In this document: piece by piece, positions 1-45,086 of the stretch | Position numbering within the stretch: position 1 is the stretch's first letter | How the letters are laid out: each line of letters starts with the position of its first letter | From: a virus | Strand: one strand, 5' to 3' | Virus record (IMG/VR): IMGVR_UViG_3300033151_000103 | Span: 1-45,086 of that record | Length of the DNA: 45,086 bases | Notes under the pieces: generated by a model | Told to the model about the DNA's origin: nothing | The model's input: the letters and a program-made list of their open reading frames with translations, nothing else | Database searches by the model: none | Position numbers and translations under genes: made by a program

Positions 1-114
1 ACTTGTTTGATTGGAAGACAAGGAAGGAAGTGGGTATCAAGCATGAACCCAAACCCAACCTAGTCATAGTGCCCATGAGTAAAAAGACACAGGAGAGAAT
101 GTATGATTGGAAAC
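1..114. repeat. Terminal direct repeat, left copy
   Basis: Identical to bases 44973-45086. It lies inside the helicase gene and joins the two gene halves in frame. This is best explained as the overlap of a circular or circularly permuted assembly, although a genuine short direct terminal repeat cannot be excluded. Confidence 0.97.
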
Positions 115-29702: not shown

Positions 29703-30116
29703 ATGTTAAAACAACTAAACGTACCAATCATATCTCAGGCATTAAAACACCTACGCAACCATAAACAGTTCACCCACATCCCAGGCGTGAATATTATCAC
29801 AATGTCACTAGGCAAAAGAAGTATGGGTAGATACCGACAAGCTACCAGCACTATCTACATAGACCCATCACATCATAGTAACTCAGTGGAATACATTGAT
29901 ACGCTACTGCACGAGTTGGCACATCACGCTATTGCTTTCTTTGATGAGGATAATGATTGCAAGTCAAGATCCCACGGGAGTCAGTGGAAGGCGGTGGCAC
30001 GCTACTTAGGTGCTCATCATATGGCGACACACAACTTGGGCGAGCAGCAGAAGGCGATAGTGCCTGAGTATCTAGAGCAAGCACACAAGGAGTTTTTATA
30101 TGACGAAAGCATTTAA
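29703..30116 (+). CDS. SprT-like zinc metallopeptidase
   Basis: 137 residues from ATG 29703, chosen for AAGGAC upstream instead of the GTG at 29658. Motif HELAHH (HExxH) near residue 77 gives the zinc ligands and catalytic Glu, with a downstream HGSQWKAVARYLGA that supplies the third His as in SprT/Spartan-type proteases. Many phages carry stand-alone SprT domains; possible roles are removal of DNA-protein crosslinks or cleavage of host proteins. It heads a run of overlapping small genes. It is not an endolysin by this motif set. Confidence 0.75.
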   Translation: MLKQLNVPIISQALKHLRNHKQFTHIPGVNIITMSLGKRSMGRYRQATSTIYIDPSHHSNSVEYIDTLLHELAHHAIAFFDEDNDCKSRSHGSQWKAVARYLGAHHMATHNLGEQQKAIVPEYLEQAHKEFLYDESI

Positions 30117-37330: not shown

Positions 37331-39202
37331 TTGAAAATATACAAGTTTAGTACATTAGATGAACTGACTGAGATTGATAAGTCCCAACCCATCTTTGTTG
37401 ATACAGAGACAGGTGGAGAGGCTTATGAGTTTGTTGTCACTATTCAAGTGTACCAAGAACACTGGGACCAAGTGAAAGTATTTGTGATGAAGGATCTACC
37501 TTCTTTTGCAGTTGAGTTTATTTGGGCCTCAATTAAGGACAGCGAAATGGTGGGTCACAACTATGGATATGACCTTATGCAGTTTTGGCGTCATGCTAAT
37601 GGCACCTATGAAACACCTGCAAATTGGTTTGACACTTTCTATGCTTCTCGTTTAGCATTTCCAAAGTGGCAAGTGTACTCCCTTGATGAATGTCTTACTA
37701 AGGTATTGGGTTATGACCCATATGATAGAGAAGGTTTAGTCAAGAAGGATATGCAGAAATCATTCTCTCCCAACACAGAGATAACTGAGGACCAAGGTAT
37801 GTATGCAAGTATTGATGTGTACCTGCTGCCTAAGTTGTATCACGCTGTCAAAGCATTCAGAAACGACTTCAACTTTAAACTTGATAGTCGCATTGCTGAG
37901 TATGCCACACTAATGCCTGAGATGGGTATGCCAGTGGATCCTGAACGCCTCCTGAAGTTAGAGAAGGACGACAATGCAGAAGTCATTCGCTTGACTAGTG
38001 TGTTGCCTGAAGGCCTTAATGTGAATAGTTACATACAGGTTAGAAAGGCATTGGGTCTCAAGAACACTTCTGATGAAGTTACCTTGCGTATCATTGCTAG
38101 TCGACCTGCACAGATGGAAGGTATCAAAGGCACACTGGCAAAGACAACTAAGAGAGCAGAGCAACGTAATGTTGTTTTAGAACCTCACTATGTTCCTGCT
38201 GAATGGAAGCGTACTATGGCAGATGACATTCTCCTCAAGCGTAAAGCATTGAAGAGATTACAGTTTGTAGTTAGAGCAAAGAAGTACATGAATGAGGACC
38301 ACAGGATTACATCCCGTTTCTCACCTCATGCTATTACAGGGCGGGTGCAGGGTTCAGAAGAGAACCTATCACAGTATCCACGTACCATGAAACAGATGTG
38401 GGGCATCAATCCCAAGGTTCATGGTGACAGAGTGTTGGTGTATGCTGACTACTCACAACTTGAGTTAAGGAGCATTTGTGCTATCCTACCTGAAAGAAAT
38501 ATGGAAGAAGCATACAGAAATGGGATTGACTTGCACACTTATGCTTCTCGCAATCTTACTCTTGACGAGTCTAAGCTTCCTGATGGTGTTACTCCTAGGT
38601 TCGTTGCCAAGCAACTCAACTTTCTTGCCTTGTATGGCGGAGGAGTTGCAAACTTTCAGAAGACAGTTTGTAAACTGAGTGAGATTTGGCTTGAAACTGA
38701 TGTGTGTCAGAAGGCCTTCCGTGATTGGAAGACTGGTTTCTCAGACATCAAGGACTGGCATGAAGACAATGCTAAGTCACCTGACAATATGGACCAAACC
38801 ATTAGTGGTAGAAAGTACAAAGCAAAGTCATACACTGACCTAAACAACATTCGTAATCAAGGTTCAGGTGCTGAGGTTGCAAAACTTGCATGGCACTACC
38901 TGTACAAATATGATATGCTTGGTGAGGATAGTTGGATGGTGAACATGATACATGATGCTTTCATCATTGACTGTCCAAACATTCCAGAAGTGTATGAGCG
39001 TGTTGCTAGGAACCTGGGACTTGCTATGCAGAAAGCATGGTTTGCTATTATGAAGCAAGCACCTATCAAAGACCTTCCAATGCCAGTTGATGTTCTAGTA
39101 GGATTGAACTGGGAAGACATTGAGTATGGTAACAATATCATCTATGAAACAACTATAGAAGGTATGTATATGTATGACAAGGAGTTAGCAGATGTCAGTT
39201 AA
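37331..39202 (+). CDS. Family A DNA polymerase with 3'-5' exonuclease
   Basis: 623 residues. It must start at TTG 37331: an in-frame stop lies at 37316 and the exonuclease motif I (FVDTETGG) begins only ~20 codons in. Exo II HNYGYD and Exo III YASID are intact, so it should proofread. Polymerase motifs: A DYSQLELR, B KQLNFLALYGG (Phe at the position of E. coli F762), C MIHDAFIIDC. Motif C has HDA where most family members have HDE. It is the replicative enzyme of the phage. A structured leader precedes it, and its end overlaps the nucleotide hydrolase gene by 11 bp. Confidence 0.92.
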   Translation: MKIYKFSTLDELTEIDKSQPIFVDTETGGEAYEFVVTIQVYQEHWDQVKVFVMKDLPSFAVEFIWASIKDSEMVGHNYGYDLMQFWRHANGTYETPANWFDTFYASRLAFPKWQVYSLDECLTKVLGYDPYDREGLVKKDMQKSFSPNTEITEDQGMYASIDVYLLPKLYHAVKAFRNDFNFKLDSRIAEYATLMPEMGMPVDPERLLKLEKDDNAEVIRLTSVLPEGLNVNSYIQVRKALGLKNTSDEVTLRIIASRPAQMEGIKGTLAKTTKRAEQRNVVLEPHYVPAEWKRTMADDILLKRKALKRLQFVVRAKKYMNEDHRITSRFSPHAITGRVQGSEENLSQYPRTMKQMWGINPKVHGDRVLVYADYSQLELRSICAILPERNMEEAYRNGIDLHTYASRNLTLDESKLPDGVTPRFVAKQLNFLALYGGGVANFQKTVCKLSEIWLETDVCQKAFRDWKTGFSDIKDWHEDNAKSPDNMDQTISGRKYKAKSYTDLNNIRNQGSGAEVAKLAWHYLYKYDMLGEDSWMVNMIHDAFIIDCPNIPEVYERVARNLGLAMQKAWFAIMKQAPIKDLPMPVDVLVGLNWEDIEYGNNIIYETTIEGMYMYDKELADVS

Positions 39203-39491
39203 ACAAGATTTAGGTAAACTACGTTGGGACATAGTTCCTTTCGCTGCACTTGATAGTGTGGTTAGAGTGTTGACTATTGGTGAGGTGAAATATCCTTCAA
39301 CAGAGGAAGGTTTGAATTGGTTAGTTAAATCAACTAAGGAAGACCTTCCACGATATGAAGCAGCAATGCTAAGACATATGTCTGAACATATGCAAGGTAG
39401 AAAGGTGGATCCTGAAACAGGAGAACCTCACCTATCGCACATCATTGCTAATTGCTTATTTTTAATAGAACTGGAGAAGAAATGGCAGTAG
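39192..39491 (+). CDS. dATP/dGTP diphosphohydrolase N-domain-like protein (DUF5664)
   Basis: 99 residues. Pattern LRWDIVPFAALDSVVRVLTIGEVKYPS...NWL, then RYEAAMLRHMSEHMQGRKVDPETGEPHLSHIIANCLFLIELE fits the phage DUF5664 family annotated as dATP/dGTP diphosphohydrolase N-terminal domain (MazG-like all-alpha fold). It would act on deoxynucleotides; here it could shape the pool before the deazaguanine pathway consumes GTP. ATG 39192 lies inside the polymerase end; it overlaps the exonuclease start by 10 bp. Confidence 0.68.
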   Translation: MSVKQDLGKLRWDIVPFAALDSVVRVLTIGEVKYPSTEEGLNWLVKSTKEDLPRYEAAMLRHMSEHMQGRKVDPETGEPHLSHIIANCLFLIELEKKWQ

Positions 39492-40372: not shown

Positions 40373-40804
40373 ATGAGTGAATTTAAAGATGAGCGTTCTC
40401 ACAATAGTGAAGATGCAACGAGATATGGTAAAGACATTATTAACAACTTCAATGTAGATGAGGACTTAGTGTTCTGGGAAATGAAACCTGAGTACACAAA
40501 GAATGGTTACTTAGTGACTATGATACACCCTGAGATCTCAGCGTTGTGTCCTGTGTCAGGTTACCCTGATAGTGGTAAGGTTACTGTGCAGTTCATTCCT
40601 AATGAGAACACAGTAGAGTTGAAGGCCTTCAAGTTATGGATTAACAGTTATCGTAATACTGCCATTAGTCATGAAGGTCTTGCAAATGAGATTTACAACA
40701 TCCTTAACAAAGGACTGCAAGCAAAAGAGTTGTATGTCAAACTAGAGATGATGCCAAGAGGCAATGTCACAACTATCGTGGAGGTAGGTCATGTTAGCAA
40801 TTAA
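40373..40804 (+). CDS. queF: QueF: NADPH-dependent preQ0 reductase
   Basis: 143 residues, the unimodular (type I) size. ALCPVSGYPD carries catalytic Cys59 and the conserved Asp66; ELKAFKLW (82-89) fits the E(S/L)K(S/A)hK(L/Y)(Y/F/W) NADPH-binding motif; SHEG (His100, Glu101) follows, then LEMMPRG. All key residues are present. It reduces 7-cyano-7-deazaguanine (preQ0) to preQ1. Start ATG 40373 follows the best ribosome site in the block (AAGGAGGTAGC). Its presence makes preQ1, not preQ0, the predicted end product. Confidence 0.9.
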   Translation: MSEFKDERSHNSEDATRYGKDIINNFNVDEDLVFWEMKPEYTKNGYLVTMIHPEISALCPVSGYPDSGKVTVQFIPNENTVELKAFKLWINSYRNTAISHEGLANEIYNILNKGLQAKELYVKLEMMPRGNVTTIVEVGHVSN

Positions 40805-41303
40805 GAAGTTTAAGTTTGAACTAGCACACCGCTTGGTGTCAAGTTACAGTACTAAGTGTCAGTCAATGCATGGGCACTCATACATTGCAGAAGTAATGTT
40901 GGAAGGTGAGCACCTGAACAGTGATGGTATGCTCATTGACTTTGGTGAGGTGAAAGACAGAATCAATCATCTGTTTGATGCTTGGGACCATTCATTTATG
41001 TTTTTCAAAGAGGACATCCTTGCTGACCATTACAAGTCAATGCTTCGTGTGGTTCCTATGCGTATGATTGAGGTTGACTACAACCCAACAGCAGAGAACA
41101 TGGCATACCACATTTACAAAGCGTGTGTTACAGAAGGTCTGCCTGTTAAGGAAGTTCGTGTTCAAGAGACACTAACGGGTTGGGCAATTGCTAGTCGTCC
41201 TAAACCATTCGTAGGTGAGGATGTTACATACTATAATGTTCCTGAGATAGAAGCACAGTCAGGTGGAAAGGTCAGACACTATGAAACAGTACAACGTAGT
41301 TGA
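40791..41303 (+). CDS. queD: QueD: 6-carboxytetrahydropterin synthase
   Basis: 170 residues with the zinc site FELAH (His13), CxxxHGH (Cys23, His27, His29), the WDH (Asp66, His67) pair, NPTAENMA (98-105) and VQETLTGWA (Glu126), all in the expected order for QueD. It converts dihydroneopterin triphosphate, the FolE product, into 6-carboxytetrahydropterin. GGAGG lies 7 bp before ATG 40791, inside queF. It overlaps queE by 23 bp. Confidence 0.9.
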   Translation: MLAIKKFKFELAHRLVSSYSTKCQSMHGHSYIAEVMLEGEHLNSDGMLIDFGEVKDRINHLFDAWDHSFMFFKEDILADHYKSMLRVVPMRMIEVDYNPTAENMAYHIYKACVTEGLPVKEVRVQETLTGWAIASRPKPFVGEDVTYYNVPEIEAQSGGKVRHYETVQRS

Positions 41304-41889
41304 GCTCTTCAAGAGCATTCAGAGTGAAGGAATTAACGCTGGGAGAGCAGCGTCTTTTGTGCGATTTTATGGGTGTAACCTTGCCTGCAAGTTTGGAGAG
41401 AACTTCAAGTGTGATGAACCACTCCATACTGAACTTGGTGCAGTGGAACATAAAACCCTTGATGACATACTTGCCTATTGTAAAGGTATCCGTCTAGTTG
41501 TTATCACAGGAGGGGAGCCTAGTATCAATGATATTAATCCTCTCATTGAGGCCTTGCAGGATCAGGGTCATGAAGTTGCAGTTGAAACTAATGGGTATAA
41601 GTTGATCCATATCAACAAAGCGAACTGTATCACATACTCACCTAAGGTACAGTGGTCAGAAGACAAGTATGTAATGGGCTATGGTTTCCATGAACTCAAA
41701 CTGTTAGCATCAGAAGAGTTCCCACCTAATGAACAACAATGGAGAAGCATACATAATAAGTTTATTCAACCCATTGGAACTGAAGATGGTTGGGACCTTG
41801 ACAATGTTAGATGGTGTGCTGATTGGGTGATTGCTCATCCTGATTGGAAACTATCCTTGCAGACACACAAAATTTATGGAGGTCAGTAA
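41281..41889 (+). CDS. queE: QueE: radical-SAM 7-carboxy-7-deazaguanine synthase (long cluster loop)
   Basis: 202 residues. VELFKSIQSEG, GCNLAC, TGGEPS (76-81) and ETNG (102-105) are QueE hallmarks. The iron-sulfur site is C32-x3-C36-x7-C44 rather than the common Cx3Cx2C. This resembles the extended-loop QueE variants known from some bacteria. ATG 41281 is preferred over GTG 41263. It makes 7-carboxy-7-deazaguanine from the QueD product. The end overlaps the dpdA start (TAATG). Confidence 0.88.
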   Translation: MKQYNVVELFKSIQSEGINAGRAASFVRFYGCNLACKFGENFKCDEPLHTELGAVEHKTLDDILAYCKGIRLVVITGGEPSINDINPLIEALQDQGHEVAVETNGYKLIHINKANCITYSPKVQWSEDKYVMGYGFHELKLLASEEFPPNEQQWRSIHNKFIQPIGTEDGWDLDNVRWCADWVIAHPDWKLSLQTHKIYGGQ

Positions 41890-42575
41890 TGAGACTGATA
41901 CACATTTGCCCTACTAGCATGATTGCTGAAGTAGACAAAAACTTAAACAGAGGTTTGAACATGGTGTTAACTCACCTTGTTCTTAGTGACCCAGAGTACA
42001 GACAAGAGATGAAGAACCTTACAGGTACTAAGTACTTGGACAATTCATTCTTTGAACTTGGATATTGTATGCAACCTGAGGAGATGATTAAGGCAGCAGA
42101 ACTTGTAGATGCTACCCACCTCATCTGTCCTGATGGTACATACGAAGGTATGAAAGAGTTTAAAGAAGCAGGCTACAAAGTTATGTGTATTCCCAACTCT
42201 GTTGAGCAGTTCAAGGACATGATGTATAATCATGCTATTGACTTGGTAGCAGTTAGTGAGGAACACATTGACTATCGTCATGCTCCTGGAGCACGCTATG
42301 AGTTCTTCCGTGATAACATTGAACCAATGATGCCACCTAAGAAGATTCACTTGCTTGGTGGAACAGACAGCATATGGGAACTTGGAATGCTAATGCCTTT
42401 CGACAACTATATTGAGTCATGGGATAGTAGTGCAGTTGTATGGCAAGGTCATTTAGGTCATGAACTACGCTACATGGCACGAAAAGATTGTACATCAGTT
42501 GACTTCTCAGCAGACATACACTGGAACCACATGATGGAAAAGAACCTTAACTTTGTAGAGGAGATTACAAAATGA
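41889..42575 (+). CDS. dpdA: DpdA-type DNA guanine transglycosylase
   Basis: 228 residues. This is shorter than tRNA-guanine transglycosylases (~370) and lacks their zinc-binding cysteine cluster, as in compact phage DpdA forms. Sequence hallmarks by eye: LDNSFFELG (50-58), LICPDGTYEG, HLLGGTDS (154-161) and ESWDSSAVVW (176-185, possible nucleophile Asp179). It is enclosed by queE and queC, with GGAGG before ATG 41889. It would swap guanine in DNA for preQ1. The DpdA subfamily is not resolved, and assignment rests partly on context. Confidence 0.82.
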   Translation: MRLIHICPTSMIAEVDKNLNRGLNMVLTHLVLSDPEYRQEMKNLTGTKYLDNSFFELGYCMQPEEMIKAAELVDATHLICPDGTYEGMKEFKEAGYKVMCIPNSVEQFKDMMYNHAIDLVAVSEEHIDYRHAPGARYEFFRDNIEPMMPPKKIHLLGGTDSIWELGMLMPFDNYIESWDSSAVVWQGHLGHELRYMARKDCTSVDFSADIHWNHMMEKNLNFVEEITK

Positions 42576-43255
42576 AAAACTTACTCGTATTAAGTGGTGG
42601 ATTAGACTCCACTGCAGCACTACATATACACAAGGATACTATTCATATGGCAATTAGTTTTGACTATGGAAGTAAACACAATGGGCGTGAGATTGCTCAT
42701 GCTATTGATAGTTGCGACTCACTGGGCATCCCACACCAAATCATTAAGTTGAAGCAAGTGATGAAGCATATGAAGTCATCATTGCTATCTGGTGAGGTAC
42801 CTGAAGGTCACTATGCAGATGACAATATGAAGTCAACTGTAGTACCTTTCCGTAATGCAATAATGCTTAGTATTGCTACAGGCATTGCTGACTCAAACAA
42901 CTTGGATGGCGTAATCATTGCTACTCACAAAGGTGACTTTGCTCAGTATCCTGATTGTACTGTTGCATTTAATGCAGGCATCAAGGTTGCTATGTATGCT
43001 GGAACTCACAATGGTATCCAACTAATGGCTCCTTTTGCTGCCCTTGACAAGAGAGAGATTGCTACCTTGGGCGTAGATGCAGGCATGATACCTAGTAACA
43101 CATATAGTTGTTACAAAGGTGGAGAAAATCACTGTGGAAAATGTGGTACTTGTGTTGAGCGTATTTGGGCACTTAGATTCCTAGACGACAAAACACAGTA
43201 TGAGAATACAACTTTTGCTATTATAGAGTTGAAAAAATCAGGGGAATGGAAATGA
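42572..43255 (+). CDS. queC: QueC: preQ0 synthase
   Basis: 227 residues. SGGLDS (8-13) is the ATP-pyrophosphatase loop; VVPFRNAIMLSIA is conserved; the zinc site is Cys180, Cys188, Cys191, Cys194 (CYKGGENHCGKCGTC). It turns 7-carboxy-7-deazaguanine into preQ0. Between YPDC and AF the usual R/E substrate residues are replaced (YPDCTVAF). There is no fused glutamine amidotransferase domain, so no G+-type product is expected. The start overlaps dpdA (ATGA), with GAGGAG upstream, and the stop overlaps the Tad2-like gene (ATGA). Confidence 0.9.
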   Translation: MKNLLVLSGGLDSTAALHIHKDTIHMAISFDYGSKHNGREIAHAIDSCDSLGIPHQIIKLKQVMKHMKSSLLSGEVPEGHYADDNMKSTVVPFRNAIMLSIATGIADSNNLDGVIIATHKGDFAQYPDCTVAFNAGIKVAMYAGTHNGIQLMAPFAALDKREIATLGVDAGMIPSNTYSCYKGGENHCGKCGTCVERIWALRFLDDKTQYENTTFAIIELKKSGEWK

Positions 43256-43491
43256 TAAGTAACACAACATTTGGTGCTGCACTTGAGCACCTAAAGGCAG
43301 ATAGTGAGTGTAGAATTAGTCGTGAAGGTTGGAATGGGAAAGGTATGTGGTTAAAACTGCAGGTGCCAGATAAGCATAGCAAAATGTCTCTTCCATATAT
43401 TTATATGAAGACTGCAGATGGAAACCTAGTTCCTTGGCTTGCATCTCAGACAGACATCCTAGCTGAAGATTGGAGTATCATATGCAAGTAA
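43252..43491 (+). CDS. tad2: DUF2829 / Tad2-like anti-defence protein
   Basis: 79 residues from ATG 43252 (GGGGA at 6 bp; ATG 43246 is too close to the site). FGAALEHLKAD, GWNGKGMW, then YIYMKTADGNLVPW, LASQTDILAEDW match the DUF2829 family, whose characterised members (Thoeris anti-defence 2) sequester cyclic ADP-ribose-type and other cyclic nucleotide signals. Its location inside a deazaguanine operon ties two anti-defence functions together. It overlaps queC (ATGA) and folE (10 bp). Ligand choice cannot be told from sequence. Confidence 0.82.
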   Translation: MISNTTFGAALEHLKADSECRISREGWNGKGMWLKLQVPDKHSKMSLPYIYMKTADGNLVPWLASQTDILAEDWSIICK

Positions 43492-44051
43492 GTAGAGAAG
43501 AAGCAGTAGCGGCAATGGAGAAAGTAATCTCCTTTATCCAACCAGAGAAGGATTCCCACACTGAGGGATCTGCAGAACGCTACATCAAGGCATGGGCAGA
43601 AGATTGGGGAGAGGGTTATGACTATGAGATGAAGTTCACTACCTTTGATGATGATGGTACTGACCAGATGGTAGTTGAGTTAGACATTCCTGTATGGAGT
43701 CATTGTGCTCATCACCTGGCAACTATCAAAGGTGTATGTCACATTGCTTACTTAGCAGGCGACCGTATTGTAGGTCTGAGTAAACTCAACCGCATAGTTG
43801 AGAAGTACTCCAGACGACTACAAGTGCAGGAGCGTTTGACTACGCAGATTGCGGAGGAGTTACAGGAACTCTTAGAACCTAGAGGAGTGGGTGTGCAAAT
43901 AGTTGCAGAGCATCAGTGTGTATCTAGTCGTGGTGTTAAGCATCATGGAGCAAGAACAGTCACTACTAAGTTGACAGGTTTGTTCCTCAAAGAGCCTAGT
44001 GTTAAAGAAGAGTTCCTAGCAACTATTGGGACACACTCAGGAGGAATGTGA
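43482..44051 (+). CDS. folE: FolE: GTP cyclohydrolase I
   Basis: 189 residues from ATG 43482 (GGAG 6 bp upstream; the TTG at 43470 is not needed). Zinc ligands Cys75 and His78 in SHCAHHLA, and Cys146 in EHQC. GLSKLNRIVEKYSRRLQVQERLT and the RGVKHHGARTVTT region are as in the family. It makes dihydroneopterin triphosphate from GTP and is the first step of the pathway, although the gene is placed last. Stop overlaps the next ATG (TGATG). Confidence 0.92.
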   Translation: MQVSREEAVAAMEKVISFIQPEKDSHTEGSAERYIKAWAEDWGEGYDYEMKFTTFDDDGTDQMVVELDIPVWSHCAHHLATIKGVCHIAYLAGDRIVGLSKLNRIVEKYSRRLQVQERLTTQIAEELQELLEPRGVGVQIVAEHQCVSSRGVKHHGARTVTTKLTGLFLKEPSVKEEFLATIGTHSGGM

Positions 44052-44284
44052 TGGAACTCATGTCCCTGCAGAATGCAGTTAATCAACTTCTTGAGTTCAA
44101 TACTCAGAAGGTTGTTGGGAAGAGTTTGGGTGTTACCAAGCATCAAATCTACCTTTATAGTTGTGGGAAAACAAAGACCTGCAATTACAAAGTAGAGGAC
44201 TCTCTATACACCAACCATGATATAGTCCTTGATGTCTATCCTGACGTTGAGACCTATTTAAGCGCCAAATCAATGAGAGCATAA
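44051..44284 (+). CDS. Small HTH (putative transcription regulator), 77 aa
   Basis: ATG 44051 follows GGAGG at 6 bp and overlaps the folE stop. A helix-turn-helix-like segment, KVVGKSLGVTKHQIYLYSCG (~residues 20-39), resembles small phage Cro/HTH proteins. The C-terminus is short and acidic. It could bind DNA and regulate this operon or other promoters, including the TTAAGG class; this is speculative. No family assigned. Confidence 0.6.
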   Translation: MELMSLQNAVNQLLEFNTQKVVGKSLGVTKHQIYLYSCGKTKTCNYKVEDSLYTNHDIVLDVYPDVETYLSAKSMRA

Positions 44285-44386: not shown

Positions 44387-45086
44387 ATGTGGGAATGGAT
44401 GCCACACCAAATCGTTGGTGCAGGTTGGGCTCTTGACACTATCAGAAAGTATGGTTTAGCATACCTTGGATGGGAAGAGAGAACACGAAAGACAGGTACT
44501 GCTTTACTGATGTGTGAGAACAGTAAGGTGACTAAGGTACTAATTGTAACTAAGAAGAAAGCAATCCCAGGTTGGGAAGAGCACTTTGAGAACCTTCCAT
44601 TGACTAAGGATTACACTCTTATCAACTATGAGAGTATCCACAAGGTCAATATGAATGACTATGAAATGATTATACTAGATGAAGCACACCATGCCATTAG
44701 TGGAACAGGGCGACCTAGCACAACATGGAAGAAGGTATACAAAGTTACTCGTGGCAAACCCATCCTATACATGAGTGCAACACCTTATGCAGAACACCTA
44801 GGTTTGATATATCATCAGTTCAAGTTAAGTCATTGGACGCCCTTTAACACAGAGAAGAACTTTTACGATTGGTTCAGACGTTATGGGAAAACAAACCTCA
44901 CTAGAACACCTTATGGGCTAGTAGAACAATATAACAAGTATGATGATGAAGCAGTCCTTAAACAGATTGCTCACTTGTTTGATTGGAAGACAAGGAAGGA
45001 AGTGGGTATCAAGCATGAACCCAAACCCAACCTAGTCATAGTGCCCATGAGTAAAAAGACACAGGAGAGAATGTATGATTGGAAAC
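44387..45086 (+). CDS. SF2 (SNF2-like) DNA helicase, N-terminal part
   Basis: ATG 44387 with AAAGGA upstream; no stop before the window ends, and the frame continues into 1..608, giving 397 residues in all. Q motif PHQ (6-8), Walker A position WEERTRKTGTA (29-39), DEAH (98-101) and SAT (130-132) are present. The P-loop reads ERTRKT, without the usual GxGKT glycine before KT. The last 114 bases equal bases 1-114. It would act in DNA replication or repair together with the ligase and nuclease that follow. Confidence 0.88.
   Translation, partial: MWEWMPHQIVGAGWALDTIRKYGLAYLGWEERTRKTGTALLMCENSKVTKVLIVTKKKAIPGWEEHFENLPLTKDYTLINYESIHKVNMNDYEMIILDEAHHAISGTGRPSTTWKKVYKVTRGKPILYMSATPYAEHLGLIYHQFKLSHWTPFNTEKNFYDWFRRYGKTNLTRTPYGLVEQYNKYDDEAVLKQIAHLFDWKTRKEVGIKHEPKPNLVIVPMSKKTQERMYDWK
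44973..45086. repeat. Terminal direct repeat, right copy
   Basis: Same 114 bases as 1-114; see the left copy. Its frame within the helicase gene is continuous with the window start. Confidence 0.97.

Follow-up and report, generated by a model that had tools for sequence, protein, structure and literature searches.

A self-contained viral operon predicted to yield dPreQ1 DNA through a very short DpdA-family transglycosylase

Introduction

The modified base dPreQ1 was measured by liquid chromatography-mass spectrometry (LC-MS) in the DNA of Streptococcus phage Dp-1 (about 1.7% of G) and of Halovirus HVTV-1 (about 30% of G), and DNA of HVTV-1, whose modified base is mainly dPreQ1, withstood all restriction enzymes tried; its modification was proposed as the best-protecting one of that study (PMC6884629). 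The occurrence of dPreQ1 in virus DNA, preQ0 gene clusters, phage QueF and the DpdA family are already known, although few dPreQ1 genomes have been described. Here we analyzed IMG/VR virus record IMGVR_UViG_3300033151_000103, a stretch of 45,086 bp that is called the window below. A run of overlapping genes at 40373-44051 on the + strand is likely to be a self-contained DNA hypermodification system yielding dPreQ1, and represents an unusually compact example of a strategy known in a few viruses.

Phage Dp-1 resembles the window in encoding FolE, QueD, QueE, QueC, a unimodular QueF and a DpdA, and its QueF was the closest in any named phage (36% identity). However, its DpdA is of the DpdA1 type (311 aa), its gene order is different, and it carries the transporter QueT. 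HVTV-1 also encodes the full preQ0 pathway with QueF, but it is an archaeal virus, its QueF is 28% identical to that of the window, and its transglycosylase is of another type, which we take to be DpdA4. Flavobacterium phage vB_FspM_immuto (immuto) has a DpdA of the same family as the window, folE, queD and queE, a QueF nearby, and the QueE cysteine spacing CX3CX7C. In contrast to the window, this 160-kb phage has a gene for a formyltransferase, its QueF is longer and of the bimodular type, and its DpdA is only remotely similar; no queC was detected in the stretch examined. The Campylobacter Firehammervirus phages CP220 and CP21 encode a transglycosylase-like protein of the same DpdA family, but they are of a different phage type, no QueF was found beside the transglycosylase, and the Firehammervirus base is dADG (PMC6884629). 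In Firehammervirus DNA, dG is reportedly replaced completely by 7-deazaguanine derivatives (PMC10273834), and we infer that the transglycosylase-like genes of CP220 and CP21 are responsible for this replacement.

The phage group of the window adds a QueF paired with a very small transglycosylase. New features are the combination of a DpdA3-like enzyme with QueC and QueF where no tailoring gene was seen, the podovirus-type genome, the very short enzyme, the CX3CX7C QueE, the presence or absence of queF among relatives, and an embedded gene resembling Thoeris anti-defence 2 (Tad2).

Results and discussion

The window encodes a complete preQ0 pathway in one overlapping run

Given the exact 114-bp repeat at both ends of the window (1-114 and 44973-45086), the record probably represents a complete genome, 44,972 bp in length. 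Enzymes were assigned by hidden Markov model (HMM) scans with Pfam, PHROGs and NCBIfam. The scans showed that FolE, QueD, QueE and QueC, which make up the preQ0 pathway, and QueF were all encoded (Table 1), as the initial annotation had proposed. The genes lie in the order queF-queD-queE-dpdA-queC-Tad2-like-folE, and adjacent genes overlap by 1-23 nt, dpdA overlapping both queE and queC. The single overlapping run with a transglycosylase was therefore confirmed; its earlier gene list was right for the pathway genes and dpdA, but the Tad2-like gene had been overlooked. Likely start codons were assigned at 41281 (ATG) for queE and 43482 for folE.

QueC contained the SGGLDS loop and a four-cysteine Zn site, and Gat-QueC was rejected because no amidotransferase domain was fused to it. 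The Zn and active-site motifs of FolE, C..HH and EHQC..RG, were intact. The earlier claim that all key residues are present must be qualified for QueE, in which the cluster cysteines are spaced CX3CX7C (C-NLA-C-KFGENFK-C). The canonical QueE cluster motif is CX3CX2C (PMC8124187), and neither this motif nor CX14CX2C was found, so the protein falls outside a strict radical SAM (S-adenosylmethionine) motif definition and its naming as QueE-like follows from the HMM match and the pathway context. The CX3CX7C spacing was also found in QueE of phages immuto and phiST and of the IMG/VR relatives L013, L015, L016, L104 and L108, and it was noted for loci L007 and L008; L014, L043 and L105 had CX3CX2C. 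Because the same spacing recurs across phages, a broken queE gene was rejected, and CX3CX7C is, as judged from these sequences, a recurrent phage variant of QueE.

The order QueD-QueE-DpdA-QueC-FolE was kept in relatives, with protein identities of 38-79%. The loci L013, L015, L016, L104, L105 and L108, and a partial cluster in L014, shared this order and the same neighbours, although some members of this group had extra small genes between queF and queD, unlike the window. QueD was 61-74% identical across the full-length syntenic relatives, and DpdA was 44-70% identical in L105, L104, L013-L016 and L108. In the L013/L016 pair, dN/dS was 0.06-0.18 in the genes other than queF, which indicates purifying selection. 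The conserved gene order and the purifying selection together exclude a chance arrangement.

We also considered whether the genes merely raise queuosine in host tRNA, since preQ1 is also a substrate of the host tRNA guanine transglycosylase (TGT) and some phages have the pathway without DpdA (PMC6884629). However, the run includes its own DpdA-family gene, which keeps this position in relatives, and no TGT domain (PF01702) was matched in the genome or in the 228-aa dpdA product itself; a tRNA-modification role was rejected as having next to no probability.

The 228-aa protein belongs to the DpdA family

The missing PF01702 match does not disqualify the 228-aa protein, because such a match is not required of phage DpdA: DpdA2 was likewise found only through gene context and HHpred (PMC6884629). 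No model of Pfam (even at E 10), PHROGs, NCBIfam or PADLOC matched the protein, and neither tblastn among phages with this protein alone at 1e-5 nor a single-sequence search of viral contigs returned anything. A permissive tblastn detected proteins with 25-28% identity in Vibrio phage D479 (1e-7), Aeromonas phage Ahp1 and Rhizobium phage RHph_I1_18, and weak matches in Weizmannia, Bacillus and Campylobacter phages. Most of these relatives adjoin folE and other que genes; no annotated que gene was present in the stretch examined around the relative in Campylobacter phage CP21. The Bacillus member, used as query, reached proteins of Campylobacter CP220, Cellulophaga phiST and immuto, the last of which is annotated as DpdA. 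When up to 600 candidate stretches of IMG/VR were scanned with an alignment, at least 315 relatives were detected. At the 25 loci for which 4 kb or more of upstream sequence was available, queE was upstream in 23, queD in 22 and folE in 18.

The structure of the 228-aa protein was predicted with AlphaFold. The single-sequence model was unusable (predicted local distance difference test score, pLDDT, 39.6), whereas the model based on a 54-sequence alignment was confident (pLDDT 90.6). The top three Foldseek matches in the PDB were TGT, with E values of 5e-6 to 4e-5, and VIA-align superposed the model on TGT with Z scores of 12.3-12.7 over 205-213 residues, the model being a TIM barrel of the TGT type. 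The best viral structure matches included phiST, the 464-aa nt-1 protein R9TGF0, presumably the DpdA2 of nt-1, and phage proteins named queuine tRNA-ribosyltransferase. The initial annotation had named a failure to match TGT/DpdA folds as disproof of its dPreQ1 prediction; with TGT in the top three places and phage DpdA relatives among the viral matches, the prediction survived this check.

By hhalign, the family was linked to a set of seven DpdA1 proteins with a probability of 92% (E 9.5e-8 for the single pair), and D51, H154 and D179 were placed on the corresponding DpdA1 motifs. An hhalign comparison with the single E. coli TGT sequence did not succeed, so the link to TGT rests on the fold, the DpdA1 profile and the motifs; a search of PDB sequences with the family profile gave chance matches only. 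The residues D51 (LDNSFFE), D82, H154 and D179 (SWDSSA) were invariant in the 54 sequences. The order of the motifs equals that of D89 (DSGGFQ) and D264 (FDC) in E. coli TGT, and the correspondence of the two aspartates is by this motif order. Taken with the modeled fold, these data support the prediction that the 228-aa protein is a DpdA-family transglycosylase.

In a quick maximum-likelihood tree, the seven DpdA1 proteins were split (SH-aLRT 100%) from a family of 80 members, among them the proteins of the window, CP220, immuto and phiST. The window enzyme thus grouped with CP220, immuto and phiST and not with DpdA1 of the 9g/CAjan/Dp-1 type. We take this family to correspond to DpdA3 in the sense of Cui et al. 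2023. The transglycosylases of the window group were the smallest among those examined, and the 228-aa protein is a bare barrel.

DNA modification has probably gone unannotated in many phages, because the family is widespread in IMG/VR and yet was missed by the single-sequence scans with Pfam, PHROGs and NCBIfam. Most of the distant IMG/VR relatives (L017-L092) had folE, queD and queE, but queC was nearby in none of the 14 loci that had 4 kb on either side. This lack of queC suggests that large numbers of phages insert 7-carboxy-7-deazaguanine (CDG) or a derivative. A phosphoribosyltransferase-like gene was also observed in the cluster of L104 (5635-5997), L108 (3985-4350) and L007 (6771-7166), with weak Pfam matches in L104 and L108; its product could salvage the guanine released by the transglycosylase.

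QueF would direct the predicted product to dPreQ1

The dPreQ1 prediction depends on the assignment of QueF, which scored 90 bits against TIGR03139 (QueF-II; cut-off 86.9). The protein was compared by alignment with B. subtilis QueF, the QueF-L structure 5jyx, and the QueF proteins of Dp-1 and HVTV-1. It keeps the catalytic residues C59, D66 and H100-E101 and the NADPH motif, which starts at E82. QueF and QueF-L are hard to distinguish from sequence (PMC6884629), and 5jyx was a significant match (2.1e-6); if the homologue acted as a QueF-L amidotransferase, the DNA would carry archaeosine (dG+). However, the bacterial QueF 4f8b scored far better (3.6e-12), and the NADPH motif, in general form E(S/L)K(S/A)xK(L/Y)(Y/F/W) and altered to AIEEFKKM in QueF-L 5jyx, was intact in the window (ELKAFKLW) with the same pattern as in B. 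subtilis, Dp-1 and HVTV-1. In addition, the DNA of Dp-1 and HVTV-1, which share this type of QueF, has dPreQ1 but little or no dG+ (PMC6884629). An archaeosine product is therefore very unlikely. The earlier statement that QueF moves the predicted base to dPreQ1 agrees with the nitrile-reductase signature and with the resemblance to QueF of phages with measured dPreQ1.

Two of the IMG/VR relatives lacked queF. In L013 its absence was clean (450 nt; L013 1778 compared with L016 3873-4322), and DNA identity between L016 and L013 was 89% on the 3' flank and 84% on the 5' flank; L108 also had no queF (L108 4003-4835). Since L013 and L108 keep the whole cluster otherwise, DpdA of this type probably accepts preQ0. 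Mainly dPreQ0 would result in the window if DpdA used preQ0 ahead of QueF, or if QueF were poorly active. This outcome seems quite improbable: queF is the first gene of the run and is 70-79% identical in L015/L016, L104 and L105, with all catalytic residues kept, and dPreQ0 was below detection in Dp-1 and HVTV-1 (PMC6884629). Among the loci surveyed, only the window clade and immuto had a true QueF beside DpdA of this type. Because L013 cleanly lacks queF in an otherwise syntenic cluster, the final base appears switchable by one gene, and on the simplest reading, which the initial annotation did not include, queF is a removable last step that sets insertion of preQ1 or preQ0. Relatives with and without queF occur naturally and would allow dPreQ1 and dPreQ0 to be compared cleanly.

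Proposed route and possible further decoration

By analogy with the biochemistry of TGT, DpdA and QueF, FolE would convert GTP to dihydroneopterin triphosphate, QueD would convert this to carboxytetrahydropterin, QueE would use SAM to form CDG, and QueC would form free preQ0 with ATP and ammonia. QueF would then reduce preQ0 to preQ1 with NADPH. DpdA is expected to act on phage DNA after replication, removing guanine through a covalent intermediate and inserting preQ1 to give dPreQ1, with D179 as the predicted nucleophile and D51 as the predicted general acid/base, as for D264 and D89 of E. coli TGT. The product would most likely block host restriction enzymes. From the gene set, dPreQ1 production is predicted to be independent of the host.

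No formyltransferase (PF00551) was matched in the probably complete genome, which bears out the initial annotation, and no homologue of the non-pathway proteins in the immuto, phiSM and HVTV-1 clusters, taken as tailoring candidates, was found in the window; for a methyltransferase (DpdM), the check covered candidate neighbours from phiSM only. Since no tailoring candidate was seen, plain dPreQ1 is expected from the gene content. Methyl- and formyl-dPreQ1 were reportedly described by Cui et al. 2023. In immuto, the one further phage found to combine a DpdA3-like enzyme with a true QueF, the formyltransferase gene lies two genes after dpdA. If dPreQ1 were only an intermediate, a phage or host enzyme that escaped recognition would decorate it further. 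This is unlikely, as the cluster contains no uncharacterised gene of tailoring size in addition to the negative searches above.

Several points weigh against plain dPreQ1 made by a DpdA. Several proteins of the early region have an unknown or weakly assigned function, and one of them could tailor the base. The QueE cluster motif is atypical. Unrelated TIM barrels tied with TGT in Z score, over fewer residues, so the fold alone is not proof of a TGT, and the similarity of the 228-aa protein to DpdA1 was detectable by profiles only. The base in virion DNA is a prediction from the genes, and DpdA would have to accept preQ1 rather than preQ0.

Extent of replacement

Because the enzyme groups with CP220, immuto and phiST rather than with DpdA1, dense or complete guanine replacement is possible, and modification limited to certain motifs should not be assumed. 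The extent may resemble the partial levels of Dp-1 and HVTV-1 or the complete substitution of Firehammervirus. A more far-reaching proposal is that the bare-barrel DpdA3-type enzyme converts all or nearly all dG (about 18,900 duplex positions) to positively charged dPreQ1, and that close relatives change between dPreQ1 and dPreQ0 genomes as the single gene queF is gained or lost; we put this forward as speculative and rather doubtful.

Complete replacement would also be explained if a DpdA3-type enzyme acted on dGMP, the mononucleotide, and the product were then converted by a kinase to the triphosphate and incorporated by the polymerase. In 11 of 53 IMG/VR loci, a dNMP/thymidylate-kinase homologue was found no more than 1.5 kb downstream from dpdA, although such kinases are common in phages generally and this count is without a control set. 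Such a kinase adjoins or lies near dpdA in D479, CP220, BSP7, Youna2 and immuto, and it is next to or near dpdA at the loci L001, L005, L006, L007 and L009; MazG or dGTP_diPhyd_N genes neighbour dpdA in phiST, L104, L108 and the window clade, and the transglycosylase is a bare barrel. However, no dNMP/thymidylate kinase was detected in the window, and characterised TGT/DpdA enzymes all act on nucleic acid. Cui et al. 2023 are also said to have concluded that insertion is post-replicative, which counts against exchange on dGMP. We regard the mononucleotide route as highly improbable and favour exchange on DNA. As a separate observation, the kinase, MazG and PF18909 neighbours hint at steps at the level of the nucleotide pool.

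Genomic setting and neighbouring genes

The GC content of the window was 42%. Its terminase was 41-44% and its DNA polymerase about 32-37% identical to those of the closest phages, which are podovirus-type with genomes of 41-43 kb and include Pseudoalteromonas PH1, Vibrio VPMS1 and Edwardsiella KF-1. None of these three was among the matches of the phage searches with the transglycosylase. No tRNA genes were found in the genome, promoter-like sites were not more frequent than by chance, and a search of genome contigs gave two matches to metagenome-assembled genomes only, with no clue to the host. Genes for DNA polymerase A, a dGTP_diPhyd_N-domain protein and a 5'-3' exonuclease lie directly upstream of the cluster. 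A stand-alone moron with its own promoter was rejected, the cluster being located within a long run of closely spaced replication genes.

Table 1. Features of the cluster and of other parts of the window
Feature	Coordinates	Strand	Product	Evidence
queF	40373..40804	+	unimodular NADPH-dependent preQ0 nitrile reductase, 143 aa	PF14489 3.4e-19; TIGR03139
queD	40791..41303	+	6-carboxytetrahydropterin synthase, 170 aa	PF01242 1.3e-27; PHROG QueD 2.2e-26
queE	41281..41889	+	QueE-like radical SAM 7-carboxy-7-deazaguanine synthase, 202 aa	TIGR04508 1.5e-30 (below cut-off); phrog_2076 1.1e-27
dpdA (DpdA3-like)	41889..42575	+	predicted DNA guanine transglycosylase, minimal TIM barrel, 228 aa	fold, relatives, motifs
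queC	42572..43255	+	preQ0 (7-cyano-7-deazaguanine) synthase, 227 aa	PF06508 3.6e-50; TIGR00364 over cut-off
Tad2-like	43246..43491	+	Thoeris anti-defence 2-like, 81 aa	PF11195 1.2e-24, 87 bits (cut-off 25)
folE	43482..44051	+	GTP cyclohydrolase I, 189 aa	PF01227 2.7e-52; phrog_2197 1e-60
small downstream open reading frame (ORF)	44051..44284	+	77 aa, helix-turn-helix DNA-binding look	homologues in same place in relatives
dGTP_diPhyd_N-domain gene	39192..39491	+	dGTP_diPhyd_N-domain protein, 99 aa	PF18909 3.8e-22
SprT-like gene	29703-30116		SprT-like protein; early region	PF10263 3e-8

The Tad2-like gene overlaps both queC and folE but has no part in the base pathway. None of L105, L104, L013-L016 and L108 carried a Tad2-like gene, and none was found at the equivalent position in any relative checked; an anti-defence gene (an anti-Thoeris sponge) has therefore apparently been inserted into the DNA-modification operon. 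The dGTP_diPhyd_N gene occupied the same place in L013, L015, L016 and L104, and its product may shape the dGTP pool, a link to the modification being conjectural. The 77-aa ORF had no family match in the Pfam and PHROG scans, and its homologues, with 28-37% identity, were found at the same position in L013, L015, L016, L104 and L105.

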